64,000 nucleotides of DNA from Streptomyces sp. HUAS 15-9 (GTDB taxonomy: Bacteria; Actinomycetota; Actinomycetes; Streptomycetales; Streptomycetaceae), in the NCBI RefSeq assembly GCF_025642155.1, contig NZ_CP106798.1, positions 7,192,001-7,256,000 on the forward strand. Direction: 5' to 3'. A program made the translations under genes and the position numbers. This document shows, one piece after another, positions 4,087 to 45,496 of the stretch (position 1 is the stretch's first letter; each line of letters begins with the position of its first letter). The notes beneath the pieces were generated by a model. The model was given only the letters and a program-made list of their open reading frames with translations. It had not been told where the DNA came from and made no database searches.

Positions 4087-4244
4087 GCAGCCGGGCCCCC
4101 ACGCGCACAGGATCCCGGCGCAACTGTCTGGAACTCCTTCCACATCCGCCGCGTGTTGGTGACGAGCGGCGACCCGCACAACCTCATCGAGAGCCTGCGC
4201 GCGCAGATCCCCGCCGAGCACATCGCCTTCGTCGTCGGCGGCGT
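4087..4244 (+). other. Coding-like remnant between kdpD and the IS110 fragment
   Basis: After the kdpD stop the same reading frame stays open and spells a protein-like stretch from about 4123 (WNSFHIRRVLVTSGD, then IPAEHIAFVVGG) up to exactly where transposase homology begins at 4245, in another frame. No good start codon is seen. I read this as the stub of a former kdp-downstream gene cut by the insertion element. I cannot name the family. Confidence 0.4.
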
Positions 4245-5024
4245 GGCAAGTCGGATCCGCTCGATGCCCGGAACGCGGCGCGAGCCGTGTTGAGCGGGCG
4301 GGCCCGTGCCCGGGCCAAAACGGGCGACGGGCCGGTGCAGATCGCGAGAATGTACAAACTCACGAAAGTGTCGGCCGTCAAAGCCCGCACCCAGGCCATC
4401 AGCCAGCTCAAGGCCGTACTCGTCACTGCGGACCCCGTCTTGCGGGAGGAACTGGCCGGACTGGGCAATGCCGAACTCTTCCGTACCTGTGCACAGTTCA
4501 CCGATGCGCGTGGTTGCGAGGAGGGCGGCGCGGAGTCGGTGGTGCAGGCCACCCGGATCACGCTGGGCCTGCTGGCTCACCGGATCGGCCGGCTCTCCGA
4601 GGAGATCCGGGACGTGGAGGCTCGTCTGACCCGGCTTGTGGAACGGTATGCCCCGCAGCTGCTCGATGTGGTGGGGATCGGTCCGGACACGGCGGTCGCT
4701 CTGCTGATCACGGTGGGGGACGACCCGGAACGGTTGGACAGTGAGGCGTCGTTCGCCGCGCTGTGCGGTGTCAGCCCGGTTGAGCGTTCCTCGGGGCGTC
4801 GGCAGTTCCGCCGTCTCCACCGTGGCGGCGACCGGCAGGCCAATGCCGCGCTGCATCGCATCGTGTTCACCCGTCTGCGGGTCGACCCGCGTACCCAGGA
4901 CTACTACGAGCGGCGGATCAAGGAGGGCAGGACCCGGCGTGAAATCGTCCGCTGCCTCAAACGTGACGCGGCCCGGGAGGTCTTCCACCTGGTCAAACAG
5001 CTACAGCCAGCACCCCGCTCATAG
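4245..5024 (+). pseudogene. IS110-family transposase, 5'-truncated
   Basis: From GKSDPLDAR onward the translation follows the intact IS110 transposase at 43056-44153 almost codon by codon to the end. It keeps the second half of the RuvC-like DEDD region (KSDPLDA), the helical linker and the C-terminal Tnp domain (VVGIGPDTAVALL, GVSPVE, HRIVFTRLR). The first roughly 110 residues, with the catalytic Asp and Glu of the DEDD core, are missing, so it cannot be active. The element's right end seems to lie near 5041, where the similarity to the intact copy stops after ATAGGGGC and an ACGTGAG motif. Confidence 0.9.
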
Positions 5025-5039
5025 GGGCTGTGACACGTG

Positions 5040-5072
5040 AGGACCCCGTTGGCTCGTTTCGGCGGGGGTCCT
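5040..5072. terminator. Inverted repeat after the IS110 remnant
   Basis: The arms AGGACCCC (5040-5047) and GGGGTCCT (5065-5072) are perfect complements around a 17-nt loop. It sits just outside the IS110 right end. It may end transcription coming out of the kdp operon; no T-run follows, as is common in streptomycetes. Confidence 0.45.
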
Positions 5073-9905: not shown

Positions 9906-10557
9906 CGTAGCCGAGATCGAGAGAGGCCCGGCAGAGATGAACTGCCGGGCAGCAGTAACGCAGTTGCAGTTCGCAGGACGGTGCGGTGGTGGAGTTCCGA
10001 AGCCAAGGCGGTTGCAGGACGGTGACGGGACTGACGGCCGGACCGGGTGGCCCGCAGTGATCAGGGGCCACCATGAGCAGTACCGCAGTGGCAGTACCCG
10101 TAAATGAAGGATCGCAGTACCCAGCAGTGAAGTCAGTGAGCAGTACCTCGGTGAAGGCGTCGGCTGCGGGCGCGCGCACCGGGAGGTTCGGCAGTGGGGT
10201 TCCAAGCCGGAGCAGACGCAGGACGGGCGACGGGGCTGGCTGCCGAAGAGTGGCGCTGTTCGAGGCCACCAGCAGTTTGCGGTATCAGCAGTTCGCAGTT
10301 TCCGTCAGTGAGTAGTTGATCAAGAGGGAAGAACGGAGGAGCCGAGCGCCATCAGGATCGCCCGGGCGGAAGTCTTGGACCCGGGTACCGCAGGACATCG
10401 ATAGTGAGGTGGTCTCCGGTCAAGCAACCGCGATCCCCGCGCCCCCGACAGTGTCTCGGTCGGGTCTGCGGAAACAGAGGGCCGGTGCAGTATCAGGGCC
10501 GGCAGATGGTGTAGTAGTTCCTTCGGGGCCCTGGTGCCAGTACGGCGCCAGGGCCCC
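9906..10557 (+). ncRNA. Structured, CAGT-rich leader or ncRNA upstream of the MerR-like gene
   Basis: No credible protein is coded here. The segment opens with two hairpins: CTCTCG/CGAGAG (9902-9924), then GCCCGGCAG/CTGCCGGGC (9926-9950, 9-bp perfect stem). It then holds many copies of GCAGT, including four of GCAGTACC between 10076 and 10148, and two imperfect direct copies of a roughly 55-bp unit (about 9985-10045 and 10190-10250). It closes with a 14-bp hairpin (10525-10538 with 10544-10557, one G-T pair, loop AGTAC) ending 25 nt before the next ATG. It is either a long regulatory leader or a free RNA with its own terminator. Confidence 0.5.
10525..10557 (+). terminator. Terminator or attenuator hairpin at the end of the leader
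   Basis: GGGGCCCTGGTGCC and GGCGCCAGGGCCCC pair over 14 positions with one G-T wobble. The hairpin sits just upstream of the ribosome site (GAGAGG) of the MerR-like gene, so its folding could decide whether that gene is transcribed. Confidence 0.65.
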
Positions 10558-10582
10558 TCAACGCGTTCCACAGAGAGGTGCA

Positions 10583-10921
10583 ATGACAGCAGACGACACG
10601 TTCGGCCGTCTCGACGACGACGATTACCCCGCGTACACCATGGGTCGGGCCGCCGAGTTGCTCGGCACTACCCCTGCCTTCCTCCGCGCCCTCGGCGAAG
10701 CCCGCCTGATCACCCCCCTGCGCTCCGAAGGCGGCCACCGCCGCTACTCCCGCTACCAACTGCGTATCGCCGCCCGCGCCCGGGAACTCGTCGATCGGGG
10801 CACCCCCATCGAGGCTGCCTGCCGGATCGTCATCCTCGAAGACCAGCTCGAGGAAGCCCAGCGCATCAACGCCGAATATCGCCGCGCCGCCGAATCAGTG
10901 AACCCGACGGCAGCAGAATGA
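10583..10921 (+). CDS. MerR-like helix-turn-helix regulator
   Basis: This is a 112-aa protein. After an acidic N-terminus it carries a MerR-type winged helix (YTMGRAAELLGTTPAFLRAL, then LRSEGGHRRYSRYQL at about 21-60). A short helical tail (EDQLEEAQRINAEYRRAA) probably mediates dimerisation. There is no metal- or drug-binding domain. The ATG at 10583 is chosen for its GAGAGG site and for the start of homology. A second cold-shock gene follows after 244 bp, so this small regulator may control it or be co-expressed with it (inference). Confidence 0.85.
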   Translation: MTADDTFGRLDDDDYPAYTMGRAAELLGTTPAFLRALGEARLITPLRSEGGHRRYSRYQLRIAARARELVDRGTPIEAACRIVILEDQLEEAQRINAEYRRAAESVNPTAAE

Positions 10922-11054
10922 GATGAGCGTGCTCGTCAGCGCCGGCGGGCATCGCACGCACGGTCTCGGTGTGCGGCGTGATCCTTTCCTATGGTGACGC
11001 GGTGTGTGGGCGTGTAACGTCTGTGTCAGCTGTCGTGGTTCGGAATTCCCTCTT

Positions 11055-11079
11055 GCCCACGCCTTTGGCGTGGGCGTTT
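11055..11079 (+). terminator. Intrinsic terminator or attenuator before the second cold-shock gene
   Basis: GCCCACGCC (11055-11063), loop TTT, GGCGTGGGC, then GTTTT: a classic hairpin plus T-run. It lies between the MerR-like gene and the cold-shock gene. A weak promoter (GGTGAC, 16 bp, TAACGT at about 11017-11022) may lie before it, in which case the hairpin would be inside the cold-shock leader. Confidence 0.75.
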
Positions 11080-11165
11080 TGCTGTGCTGTGCCGCAGGGA
11101 CCAGGGCGATCACCTCCGTCTGCCACATGGAGTGGGAGGCGTTCATCGACTGGAAGGCATAAGAC

Positions 11166-11369
11166 ATGGCAACGGGAACTGTGAAGTGGTTCAACGCGGA
11201 GAAGGGCTTCGGCTTCATCGCCCAGGACGGCGGCGGCCCGGATGTCTTCGCGCACTACTCCGCGATCAACTCCACCGGCTTTCGTGAGCTTCAGGAGGGC
11301 CAGGCCGTGACGTTTGACGTCACCCAGGGCCAGAAGGGTCCGCAGGCCGAGAACATCAACCCGGCCTGA
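11166..11369 (+). CDS. Cold-shock protein (CspA family), second copy
   Basis: This 67-aa single cold-shock domain has RNP1 (KGFGFI) and RNP2 (DVFAHYS). It differs from the copy at 6322-6525 at only a few surface positions. The family role is RNA chaperone or single-stranded nucleic-acid binding. It is preceded by a leader that contains a terminator-like hairpin and follows the MerR-like gene, whereas the first copy leads the helicase cluster. The two copies are therefore likely under different control. Confidence 0.95.
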
Positions 11370-11485
11370 CCTCGCAGACCTGCCCGAGGGATCGCGCACG
11401 CCGCGTCCGGGGCCGCCGCCCATGCGGGCCGAGCCGCCACCTGGACGAAGGCGCCCGCTCTCGTGCCGGGCCGGCGCAGGATCAG

Positions 11486-11513
11486 GGGCCGCGCAGCCAT
11501 TGCTGCGCGGCCC
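11486..11513 (+). terminator. Terminator hairpin downstream of the second cold-shock gene
   Basis: GGGCCGCGCAGC (11486-11497), loop CATT, GCTGCGCGGCCC: a perfect 12-bp stem about 115 bp after the stop codon. Confidence 0.7.
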
Positions 11514-16092: not shown

Positions 16093-16280
16093 GTGCTATC
16101 CCGGGCCCAGGGTCTGACTCATGATATTTCTGACCGAAATGTCCTGCTGTCACAGTGTCGGCCGGTGGTCGGGGTGGTGCGTTGTCGGTGCCGAACTGGC
16201 AGGGCGTGTCTCGATAGGGGCCTACCGATTGTTGTGGCGTCCTCACGATTCTGACCGTCTGACGCGGTCCGGTACCGGCA
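16093..16280 (+). mobile_element. IS110 left-end relic without its transposase
   Basis: From GTGCTATCCCGG at 16093 to about 16280 the sequence aligns with the non-coding left end of the complete IS110 element (42836 onward). Shared blocks are GGTCTGACTCATGA, TGACCGAA, CAGGGCGTGTC, ATAGGGG and CACG-TTC-GACCG. The blocks are separated by variable stretches of matching length. The transposase is absent; sequence of an unrelated gene follows at once. So only the non-coding end has survived. Confidence 0.75.
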
Positions 16281-42616: not shown

Positions 42617-42835
42617 AGAGGCGGGGCCCGCCGCGTCCGAGTCCGTTCGTGCCGTGGTCGATGAAGGACTGCCGGTAAGGCAGGCCACAGGCTGTCCGTC
42701 AATTCCGGTCGCGAGGAAACGAAGACTCAACGCGTTGTCAGCCCGTCCAGGCCAGATTGAGCACCGGTTCGGACGAAGCCATCCGGCAGTGATCGAGTCA
42801 TGCCGTTGCGCCGGGATCAATGGGACGGTTGCGCA

Positions 42836-43055
42836 GTGCTGTCCCGGACGCGGGTCTGACTCATGAGATCTATGACCGAAGTGTCCAGTCACAGGCGTGT
42901 CGACTGTCGTTGCGGGATGGCGCCTGCTGTCACCGAGCCACAGGGCGTGTCCCAATAGGGGGCCTTGCCAACGATCAGGCGCCATCACGGTTCAGACCGC
43001 CCGAGCGGGCCGGTGCCACCCACTCAGTACGTCACCACGCGGGAGGCGGACCACC
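42836..43055 (+). ncRNA. Candidate bridge RNA gene in the IS110 left end
   Basis: In the IS110 group the non-coding left end encodes a bridge RNA that pairs with donor and target DNA (established for IS621 and relatives). Here a perfect 10-bp inverted repeat (ATGGCGCCTG 42917-42926, CAGGCGCCAT 42976-42985) encloses a loop with the conserved CAGGGCGTGTC and ATAGGGG. Comparison with the relic at 16093-16280 shows conserved blocks alternating with variable stretches, as expected for a fixed scaffold with changing guide loops. No promoter was identified with confidence. Confidence 0.5.
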
Positions 43056-44153
43056 ATGACGACCAGACAGCGCAGCACATACTCCAGTACCGATCCTCCC
43101 GTGCGGAAAGAGGTCGTACTGGGCGTGGACACGCACGGTGAGGTGCACGTCGCCGCCGTGGTGTCCCCGCTGGGCAAGATCCTGGGCACCGAGTCCTTTC
43201 CGGCGACGGTGGCCGGCTACCAGCGGCTGCTCATGTGGGCCCGCAAGCGGGGGACGGTGCGCCGGGCCGGTGTAGAGGGCACCGGCACCTTCGGCGCGGG
43301 CCTGTCCCGCTACCTGCTGGCGCAGCAGGTCGAGGTGTACGAAGTGAACCGCCCCGACCGCTCGGCCCGCCGGCTGCTGGGGAAGTCGGACCTGCTCGAC
43401 GCGCAGGCCGCCGCGCGGGCCGTGCTCAGTGGCCGCGCCCGGGCCCGGGCCAAGTCCGGCGACGGTCCGGTGCACAGCGCCCGGATGTTCAAGCTCGCCA
43501 AGGACTCCGCGGTCAAGGCCCGCACCCAGGCGATCAACCAGCTCAAAGCCGTCCTGGTCATCGCCGATCCCGCACTGCGGGAACGACTGTCCAGCCTGGG
43601 CAACCGCGAGCTGTTCCGCACCTGCGCACGCCTCGGCCCAGGCGCCGGCGAGGACGGCGAGAACGCGGTGGCCCAGGCCACCCACATGACCCTGAGAATG
43701 CTCGCCGAGCGCATCGAACAGCTCACCGTGCAGATCAATGAGCTGAACCAACGCCTGACCCAGCTCGTCGAACACCACGCCCCACAGCTGCTCGTACCGG
43801 TGGGCATCGGCCCGGACAGCGCAGTCACCTTGCTGATCACCATGGGAGACAACCCCGAGCGGCTGAACACTGAGGCATCCTTTGCTGCCCTTTGCGGAGT
43901 CAGCCCCGTCGAGTACTCGTCGGGCCGGCGGCGTACGCGCCGCCTCAACCACGGCGGCGACCGGCAGGCGAACGCGGCCCTGCACCGCATCGTGTTCACC
44001 CGGCTGCGCCACGACCCCCGCACTCAGGCGTACTACGAACGCCGCACGAAGGAGGGCAAGACGCGACCTGAGATCATCCGATGCCTCAAACGGTATGCCG
44101 CCCGCGAGGTCTTTAACCTGGTCAGACCGGTGCCCAGCACCCCCGCGTTATAG
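43056..44153 (+). CDS. IS110-family transposase (DEDD recombinase)
   Basis: The 365-aa protein has the N-terminal RuvC-like DEDD core (LGVDTHGEVHVAAVV, AGVEGTGTFG, KSDLLDAQAAARAV), a coiled helical middle (LAERIEQLTVQINELNQRL) and the C-terminal Tnp domain (VPVGIGPDSAVTLL, GVSPVEYSSGRR with the candidate catalytic Ser, HRIVFTRLR). Length and motifs are complete, so it is likely active. The ATG at 43056 has a GGAGGCGG-type site. It is the only intact copy of the family in the window. Confidence 0.95.
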   Translation: MTTRQRSTYSSTDPPVRKEVVLGVDTHGEVHVAAVVSPLGKILGTESFPATVAGYQRLLMWARKRGTVRRAGVEGTGTFGAGLSRYLLAQQVEVYEVNRPDRSARRLLGKSDLLDAQAAARAVLSGRARARAKSGDGPVHSARMFKLAKDSAVKARTQAINQLKAVLVIADPALRERLSSLGNRELFRTCARLGPGAGEDGENAVAQATHMTLRMLAERIEQLTVQINELNQRLTQLVEHHAPQLLVPVGIGPDSAVTLLITMGDNPERLNTEASFAALCGVSPVEYSSGRRRTRRLNHGGDRQANAALHRIVFTRLRHDPRTQAYYERRTKEGKTRPEIIRCLKRYAAREVFNLVRPVPSTPAL

Positions 44154-44185
44154 GGGCGTCCGTGAGACGTGAGAGGGTCTGAGGC

Positions 44186-45496
44186 GTGAGTGAGACACCG
44201 TCGAACACCCTGCAATACCGCTTTGACGGGCCAGAAGAGGCTCCCGTCCTGATCTTGGGCCCCTCACTGGGTACCACATGGCACATGTGGGACCGTCAGA
44301 TCCCTGAACTGACCAAGCAGTGGCGGATCTTCCGGTTCGATCTGCCCGGGCACGGCGGCGCCCCCGCGTACCCGGCCGGCTCGGTGACCGAGCTGGCCGC
44401 CAGGCTGCTCGTCACGCTCGACGGGCTCGGCGTACAGCGGTTCGGCTACGCCGGCTGTGCGCTTGGCGGAGGGCTCGGCATCGAACTGGCCCTGCGCTGC
44501 CCCGAGCGCGTCGCCTCGCTCGCGCTGGTCGCCACCTCCCCGCGGTTCGGGTCCGCGGACGAGTTCCGGCAGCGCGGGGTGATCGTGCGCACGAACGGGC
44601 TCGACCCGATCGCCCGGACCGCGCCGGACCGCTGGTTCACCGACGGCTTCGCGGCCGCTCAGCCCGCGATCACCGAGTGGGCCGTGCAGATGGTGCGCAC
44701 CACAGACCCGGGCTGCTACATCGCCGCCTGCGAGGCGCTGGCCGGGTTCGACGTACGGGCCGAGCTGGCCCGTGTCGGCGTGCCGACCCTCGTGCTCGTC
44801 GGCTCGGAGGACCAGGTCACCGGCCCGGCCGAGGCCCGCACCCTGGTCGCCGGCATTCCGGACGCCCGGCTCGCTGTCGTCCCCGGCGCCTCCCACCTCG
44901 TGCCGGTCGAGCAGCCCGCAGCCGTCACCGAGCTCCTGGTCCGGCACTTCTCCACCGCCTGGCAGCCCGCCTTCGACTCGTCCACCGGCCAGATGGCCAT
45001 CGTGGCGGCCACGGCCAAGCCGGCCGTCCTGGCCGCGGCGCCGCTCGTCGCTCCGCAGGCCGCGCCCATCGCCGAGATCGCCCCGGCCGTCGTACCACCG
45101 CAGCCCGCGGGGTGGCCGGATCAGTACGACGCGGGGCTCAAGATCCGCCGGGAGGTCCTCGGCGACGCGCACGTCGACCAGGCGCTGACCCAGGCCGACG
45201 ACTTCTCCGGGGAGTTCCAGGAGTTCATCACCCGGTACGCCTGGGGCGAGATCTGGAGCCGGCCGGGCCTCGACCGGCGCTCGCGCAGCTGCGTCACGCT
45301 CACCGCTCTGATCGCGGGCGGCCACCTGGAGGAACTCGCCGTCCACACCCGGGCCGCGCTGCGCAACGGGCTGACCCCGGACGAGATCAAGGAAGTCCTG
45401 CTCCAGGCGGCCGTGTACTGCGGGGTGCCCGCGGCGAACAGCGCGTTCCGGGTGGCCCAGCAGGTCATCCGCGAGGAGACCACGCTCGCGGAGTGA
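44186..45496 (+). CDS. pcaL: PcaL-like fusion: enol-lactonase-type hydrolase plus carboxymuconolactone decarboxylase
   Basis: The 436-aa protein joins an alpha/beta hydrolase (1-255, beta-ketoadipate enol-lactonase type) to a carboxymuconolactone decarboxylase (310-430, with DRRSRSCVTLTALIAGG and YCGVPAANSAF) through an Ala/Pro linker. PcaL does the last two ring-opening steps of the protocatechuate branch. Oddly, the nucleophile motif GxSxGG is GCALGG: Ala92 replaces Ser. The acid (SEDQ) and His (GASHLVP) remain. The lactonase half may be inactive or act otherwise. No other pca genes are adjacent; the IS110 right end is 12 bp upstream of the GTG. Confidence 0.82.
   Translation: MSETPSNTLQYRFDGPEEAPVLILGPSLGTTWHMWDRQIPELTKQWRIFRFDLPGHGGAPAYPAGSVTELAARLLVTLDGLGVQRFGYAGCALGGGLGIELALRCPERVASLALVATSPRFGSADEFRQRGVIVRTNGLDPIARTAPDRWFTDGFAAAQPAITEWAVQMVRTTDPGCYIAACEALAGFDVRAELARVGVPTLVLVGSEDQVTGPAEARTLVAGIPDARLAVVPGASHLVPVEQPAAVTELLVRHFSTAWQPAFDSSTGQMAIVAATAKPAVLAAAPLVAPQAAPIAEIAPAVVPPQPAGWPDQYDAGLKIRREVLGDAHVDQALTQADDFSGEFQEFITRYAWGEIWSRPGLDRRSRSCVTLTALIAGGHLEELAVHTRAALRNGLTPDEIKEVLLQAAVYCGVPAANSAFRVAQQVIREETTLAE

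Follow-up and report, generated by a model that had tools for sequence, protein, structure and literature searches.

A bridge RNA gene predicted in the left non-coding end of an IS110-group element of Streptomyces sp. HUAS 15-9

Our comparisons indicate that positions 42836 to 43005 of the window (the whole 64,000-nucleotide stretch of DNA that was analysed) very probably encode the bridge RNA of an IS110-group element. An earlier note on this DNA had proposed such a gene in the left non-coding end of the element, and the proposal was borne out by a covariance model match, by covariation in the scaffold and by guide-target matches in relatives. Since the homology is strong but the fit of the window copy is partial, we regard the RNA gene as near certain as a homologue and the activity of this particular copy as a separate question. 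From sequence we infer that the gene would be transcribed, that its RNA would be bound and direct recombination, and that the window copy could still be working, but this copy may be impaired. The features of the window on which the analysis rests are as follows.

16093-16263, + strand: orphan relic of the bridge RNA, without an adjoining recombinase (model R1, 73.2 bits, E 2.2e-14)
42811-42821, + strand: predicted left target with core CCGGGATCAAT, placed by homology to the left ends of relatives and by the left-guide fit, which has a small margin
42836-43005, + strand: predicted bridge RNA gene, delimited by its match to covariance model R1 (96.9 bits, E 1.7e-19)
42863-42873, + strand: left target guide ATGAGATCTAT, its last two bases at the core position (homologous columns in relatives)
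42888-42896, + strand: right target guide GTCACAGGC (homologous columns in relatives)
42916-42986, + strand: 11-bp inverted repeat, arms at 42916-42926 and 42976-42986
42955-42963, + strand: left donor guide ATAGGGGGC; most copies have ATAGGGGC here and at the right end
42985-42990, + strand: right donor guide TCACGG, homologous to the TCACAG of relatives
43056-44153, + strand: IS110-family recombinase, 365 aa (Pfam DEDD_Tnp_IS110 and Transposase_20; NCBIfam)
44150-44160, + strand: element right end (ATAGGGGC followed by GTC), which overlaps the stop codon (flank switch among copies)
44161-44170, + strand: right target side, CGTGAGACGT, lying before the pcaL-like gene; identical or near-identical letters stand at element-free sites of other genomes
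44186-45496: gene that we take to be pcaL-like; its start is the right flank of the element

The recombinase gene and the RNA before it

The product of the gene at 43056-44153 matches the NCBIfam entry 'IS110 family RNA-guided transposase' with 174 bits (cut-off 140) and has the architecture of the IS110 group, a DEDD recombinase with a C-terminal Transposase_20 domain. Its frame is open and the invariant columns of the family are retained. Whole-element DNA matches, many of them weak, were found in 305 of the 392 Streptomyces genomes searched. In the genome of origin the full element occurs once; besides it there are a truncated relative (window 4233-5041), the relic at 16093-16276 and, elsewhere, three weak protein matches. 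In the truncated relative the right end is followed by GTGACACGTGAGG island-type sequence.

Copies were oriented and aligned over 48 distinct 5' regions, which fall into group A (n=33, genes approximately 83-100% identical in DNA to that of the window) and group B (n=15, 72-76%). The non-coding stretch before the gene is conserved among them, and across all 48 copies conserved blocks alternate with variable ones, a pattern the earlier note had described from its comparison with the relic. Relatives with recombinases 56-60% identical to that of the window were designated group C. A scan of genome contigs matched at least 594 stretches, at least 231 of which encode a relative, and 80 loci were kept. 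Among the matches listed, which include group A and B copies, are Streptomyces, Amycolatopsis, Kribbella, Actinokineospora, Catellatospora, Microlunatus, Jiangella, Streptosporangium, Actinomadura, Hamadaea, Parafrankia and Streptantibioticus.

The covariance model, R1, has 37 pairs and was built from 36 of the 39 group C sequences listed (L226, L307 and L310 were left out of the alignment), with none from groups A or B. In the 64-kb window it matches at E<=1 only the stretch before the recombinase gene and the relic at 16093-16263. Run over 60 loci, it yielded 51 matches: the 48 group A and B sources, which had been picked for holding the stretch, were positive, two of them twice, and L116, which overlaps L047, matched as well, while the other 11 sources had no match. 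One of the double matches, at 2159-2323 of L046, lies in the same locus as the first. The relic, which the earlier note had given as 16093-16280, can be followed to 16276, has no recombinase beside it and is 72% identical to the stretch before the recombinase gene over 191 aligned bases. Such an orphan RNA copy could in principle act in trans.

Covariation, which the earlier note had named as a check, was found both in the relatives and in the copies. In the 36 group C sequences, 105 cells changed on both sides of a pair compared with 35.3 when shuffled; counted by pairs, 16 showed two-sided change compared with 13.4, a value reached by 44 of 500 shuffles. The 47 distinct group A and B matches, in an alignment fitted to the model, gave 43 two-sided changes compared with 10.6. 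An independent alignment of 37 group A and B sequences gave 16 compared with 6.0, but 17 were obtained with the partners shifted by one column, so that this figure is weak when taken alone. A structured RNA region upstream of the recombinase gene, as is characteristic of the IS110 group, is thus indicated by the R1 match and the covariation. The fold of the single sequence is not unusually stable (z -0.23, with 80 of 200 shuffles equal or better), and the evidence for an RNA is therefore comparative. Rfam 15 had no entry matching 42836-43005 at E<=5, with two irrelevant matches nearby, and no Rfam match at E<=0.01 was found in the four loci scanned.

The perfect inverted repeat to which the earlier note drew attention is present, with arms of 11 bp where 10 bp had been given. 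Across 37 sequences 88.7% of its cells pair, compared with 27-52% in slid versions; the value is the same with shuffled columns (88.7%), zero pairs are changed on both sides, and the covarying fold gives these bases other partners. The repeat was ruled out as the core structure of the RNA, since covariation is absent.

Guides and insertion sites in the relatives

Group C elements lie inside other genes, which makes both of their junctions readable. The last letters of the left flank recur in a variable loop of the stretch upstream of the gene; after them come, mostly, core CT and a left end like GTGAG. The right flank is complementary to a second variable loop. The right donor guide of these relatives, TCACAG, is complementary to their left junction, CT followed by GTGA. 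On average the left guide matches its own flank at 6.93 of 9 bases (core excluded) compared with 4.05 when flanks are shuffled, and the outer five bases of the right guide match at 3.63 compared with 2.02; none of 50,000 shuffles reached either value (30 unique pairs each, the shuffles leaving relatedness in). The count keeps L216, L225, L246 and L252, whose left ends are wrong, which biases it against a match; L241 enters without a left end and L248 and L251 without a right end. As there are several distinct target types, shared descent alone does not easily explain the agreement. In the relatives the variable stretches match the insertion site of each element, as is expected for target guides of the IS110 group.

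Individual loci illustrate the range of these fits. The left guide is identical to the flank in L299 (GTGCGACAACT in both) and in L238 (GAGGTACGACT in both), and the right guide pairs at 9 of 9 positions in L244 (GTGTTTGAT with ATCAAACAC) and L253 (CGTGATGAC with GTCATCACG). Poorer fits were seen for the left guide of L253 (6/11) and the right guides of L234 (5/9), L233 and L224 (6/9 each). In L276, from Streptomyces longwoodensis, the block containing the left target guide is present twice in tandem.

Donor guides and right ends were parsed in 69 of the 80 loci, the 11 on contigs already sampled being left out; L247, L280, L283 and L303 gave no left donor guide, and L248, L251 and L286 no right end. 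In most copies of groups A, B and C the left donor guide and the right end are both ATAGGGGC, and in groups A and B a second, equally oriented block of this sequence stands at the stop codon, where the element ends on the right. Examples in which it is altered on one side only are L025, L040, L049 and L311. In L307, from Parafrankia colletiae, ACAGGGGC replaces ATAGGGGC in the left donor guide and at the right end alike, so that the change is paired.

The bridge RNA of IS621 has four guides in a defined 5' to 3' order. For the window element, the recombinase encoded at 43056-44153 would bind the RNA encoded at 42836-43005. Its first loop, with the left guide at 42863-42873 and the right guide at 42888-42896, would pair with the two strands of the target, and its second loop, with the left guide at 42955-42963 and the right guide at 42985-42990, would pair with the element's own joined ends. 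Target and element would then be recombined at a dinucleotide core.

The genes interrupted by the relatives, or their flanks, were scanned with Pfam (30 pieces from 25 loci). In 9 of the 25 loci the relatives lie in or beside genes with transposase domains from six Pfam entries, at sites that match their guides: DDE_Tnp_1 (L236, L245), DUF4096 of IS4/5 type (L237), OrfB_IS605 (L242), Transposase_mut (L256), DDE_3 (L229, L239) and DDE_Tnp_4 (L244, L249). L298, L300 and L308 have helix-turn-helix domains by Pfam and have a target motif in common with L229. Taking the nine by domain and these three by motif, 12 of the 25 scanned relatives appear to lie in transposase genes of other elements, a habit that offers a test case for RNA-guided parasitism of one mobile element on another. 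L250 gave a beta-helix protein, and the remaining 12 loci gave no Pfam domain, in part probably from a wrong frame having been taken.

The window copy, its pcaL flank and island arrays

The right end of the element had been put at 44172, which we correct to ATAGGGGC at 44150-44157 plus three bases. Right flanks differ in 7 of 11 compared copy pairs and switch immediately after this point: in those seven pairs the last 50 bases up to the right end are 82-98% alike and the next 50 only 26-40%. The start at 42836 given in the earlier note is right for the RNA model match; for the left end of the element itself 42822 is the most likely position, although many group A copies remain conserved for roughly 130-190 bp beyond it to the left. 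G141 has two near-identical copies, L042 and L045, whose flanks differ on either side, which probably reflects a recent move; the stretch that they have in common begins some 40 bases before the predicted left end.

Guide fits of the window copy are partial. The left target guide is identical to the predicted left target at 7 of 11 positions, the end itself being predicted by homology, and the right target guide pairs with 44158-44166 at 6 of 9 positions by Watson-Crick rules and at 7 of 9 with wobble. The left donor guide has one extra G, seen in the window copy alone among the 48 aligned copies (1/48). The right donor guide needs CCGTGA and meets ATGGGA at 42820-42825. The predicted junction cores are AT on the left and CC on the right, compared with CT at the left junctions of most relatives.

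Fits within the groups were examined by an offset scan on the model alignment, with 30 distinct group A and 15 group B copies (L032, without a right end, the duplicates L014, L003 and L045, the second match of L046, and L116 were left out). The right target guide of group A fits best exactly at the right junction, with 6.57 of 9 bases (rank 1 of 100 offsets; runner-up 4.60, mean 2.48), and the left guide at the predicted left end, with 4.90 of 11 (rank 1 of 110 offsets; runner-up 4.50, mean 2.52). In group B neither target guide is best at the predicted place, each ranking 10. Pairing of the variable stretches with the flanks, another check that the earlier note had proposed, is therefore strong in the relatives and places the group A guides as predicted, but not those of group B. 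In 20 unique pairs from group A the right guide and its flank do not covary (6.60 compared with 6.65 shuffled), and most group A flanks there are GTGA sites. A search of 384 genomes for an uninterrupted group A target, using the predicted-site pattern, gave no match at fewer than two mismatches. The right-junction core is T in 5 of 5 group A copies with right donor guide TCACAG and in 6 of 26 with TCACGG (19 C, 1 G), two group A copies not having been parsed. In L050 (G294) two elements stand in tandem, the right end of the first running straight into the RNA gene of the next at its middle (..CATAGGGGCTGTGACCGAAG..).

The features of the window copy raise the prospect that it descends from a bridge RNA element but is now a passenger, immobile on its own and spread by the islands that host it. 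We give this almost as much credence as not. The extra G in the left donor guide, the misfit between the left end and the right donor guide, and the conservation continuing to the left of the predicted left end would all be expected of a passenger, as would the same pcaL-side position in many genomes. Against this, the recombinase frame is open and keeps the invariant columns of the family, and among copies the right flank changes precisely where the element ends, which needs exact recombination at that end in the family.

The pcaL side was examined in other genomes. No trace of the recombinase gene was found at 12 of the 30 pcaL loci fetched, and eight of these 12 read GTGTGAGATTTCGTGA within two mismatches. 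In many genomes the element adjoins pcaL at the same place. A plain insertion at pcaL, with both flanks of the empty site, was considered and rejected, as the right flank fits and the left was not found; islands were considered for this reason. Element-bearing genomes contain repeated units made of the right end, the start of pcaL and a common left-end sequence (AGGTTGTAG..), and the window element stands at the right end of such arrays, beside the pcaL-like gene. The duplicated pcaL start at the left edges is broken off after ..ATGGCAC, 33 codons into the gene. A tyrosine integrase (67-100% identity) was found close upstream of pcaL in G109, G196, G375, G013, G007, G063 and G245, and fragments of this integrase in G077 and G080. 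The pcaL-like gene (44186-45496; L090, L130, L146 and L219) is a recurrent integration place: islands with a tyrosine integrase end there, as do those bearing the IS110, and the first 33 codons of the gene are duplicated. Immediately before pcaL, G061 has DNA resembling window 10380-11513.

The genome of origin has a second pcaL start at C1:7138627 (L323), 97 kb to the left of pcaL and an 82% match. It follows a GTGA-type left part, and the interruption at ATGGCAC was not found there by pattern search. Should C1:7138627 mark the left edge, a single large insertion may include the window as far as 44.2 kb.

These arrays suggest a further reading, in which the recombinase and its RNA form the right-end module of large pcaL islands and join islands at GTGA sites. 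We consider it improbable. The array units themselves (four matches on one G147 contig, of which the three internal ones were confirmed by sequence), the pairs L015/L038, L058/L059 and L047/L049, which have the same left and different right flanks with the switch at the right end, and the GTGA at many right junctions are consistent with it. The tyrosine integrases close upstream of pcaL at IS110-free sites point the other way, since the islands may move by integrase, with the crossover in pcaL at ..ATGGCAC. It is more doubtful still that the RNA-guided recombinase also joins or rearranges islands of tens of kb at pcaL, beyond its own 1.3 kb. Both right guides contain TCAC, which would pair with GTGA sites, and GTGA recurs in island left ends, so that the element end would be joinable to many sites; the associated idea of a core at GTGA, with the far end of the island serving as left end, is given the same low credence. 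If true, this would be a natural RNA-guided assembly of large island arrays. The pcaL crossover at ..ATGGCAC was also considered as the core of the recombinase itself and rejected, as no resembling guide was found by eye and tyrosine integrases explain it better.

That the conserved stretch is a DNA site, for end recognition or as a recombinase leader, instead of an RNA is very improbable: it lies directly before the gene and its single-sequence folding is ordinary, but its paired columns covary, and its left guide matches as top strand and its right guide as the complement of the top strand.

Relation to known systems

The bridge RNA reading places the window element within a recently described kind. 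For IS110 elements, bridge RNAs and the layout of their guides have been known from 2024 (PMC11208160, PMC11187229), and RNAs have been predicted in 85.7% of catalogued IS110 elements (PMC11208160). Set beside IS621 (PMC11208160), the present family is alike in having a DEDD recombinase with the RNA encoded before its gene, two loops with left and right target and donor guides, and the CT core, here at the left junctions of relatives. It differs in its scaffold, which has no Rfam match, in the right target guide of about 9 bases in relatives, and, for the window group, in having GTGA as right target and a left end that is less firmly placed. The seekRNA of ISEc21, of IS110 type, likewise comes from a non-coding region upstream of the gene, and in the seekRNAs of PMC11187229 the top-strand match also lies 5' of the bottom-strand match; the elements and hosts there are others, and the RNA was co-purified with its transposase, an association that would be expected here by homology. 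The bridge RNA family may be a new branch of this kind and may be among the genome-wide predictions of PMC11208160.

Elements of the IS1111 group have recombinases of the same superfamily, but their RNA follows the gene. Membership of that group was rejected, as an RNA-bearing non-coding end after the gene is absent here: the right end, ATAGGGGC, overlaps the stop codon and approximately 7 bases follow.

The family adds actinobacterial bridge RNAs whose guides can be set against natural targets in many genomes; it is suited to tests of programmability in high-GC hosts, and R1 finds further members. By sequence at E<=0.01, the only solved relative of the recombinase is the ISCro4 transposase (E 4.6e-07).
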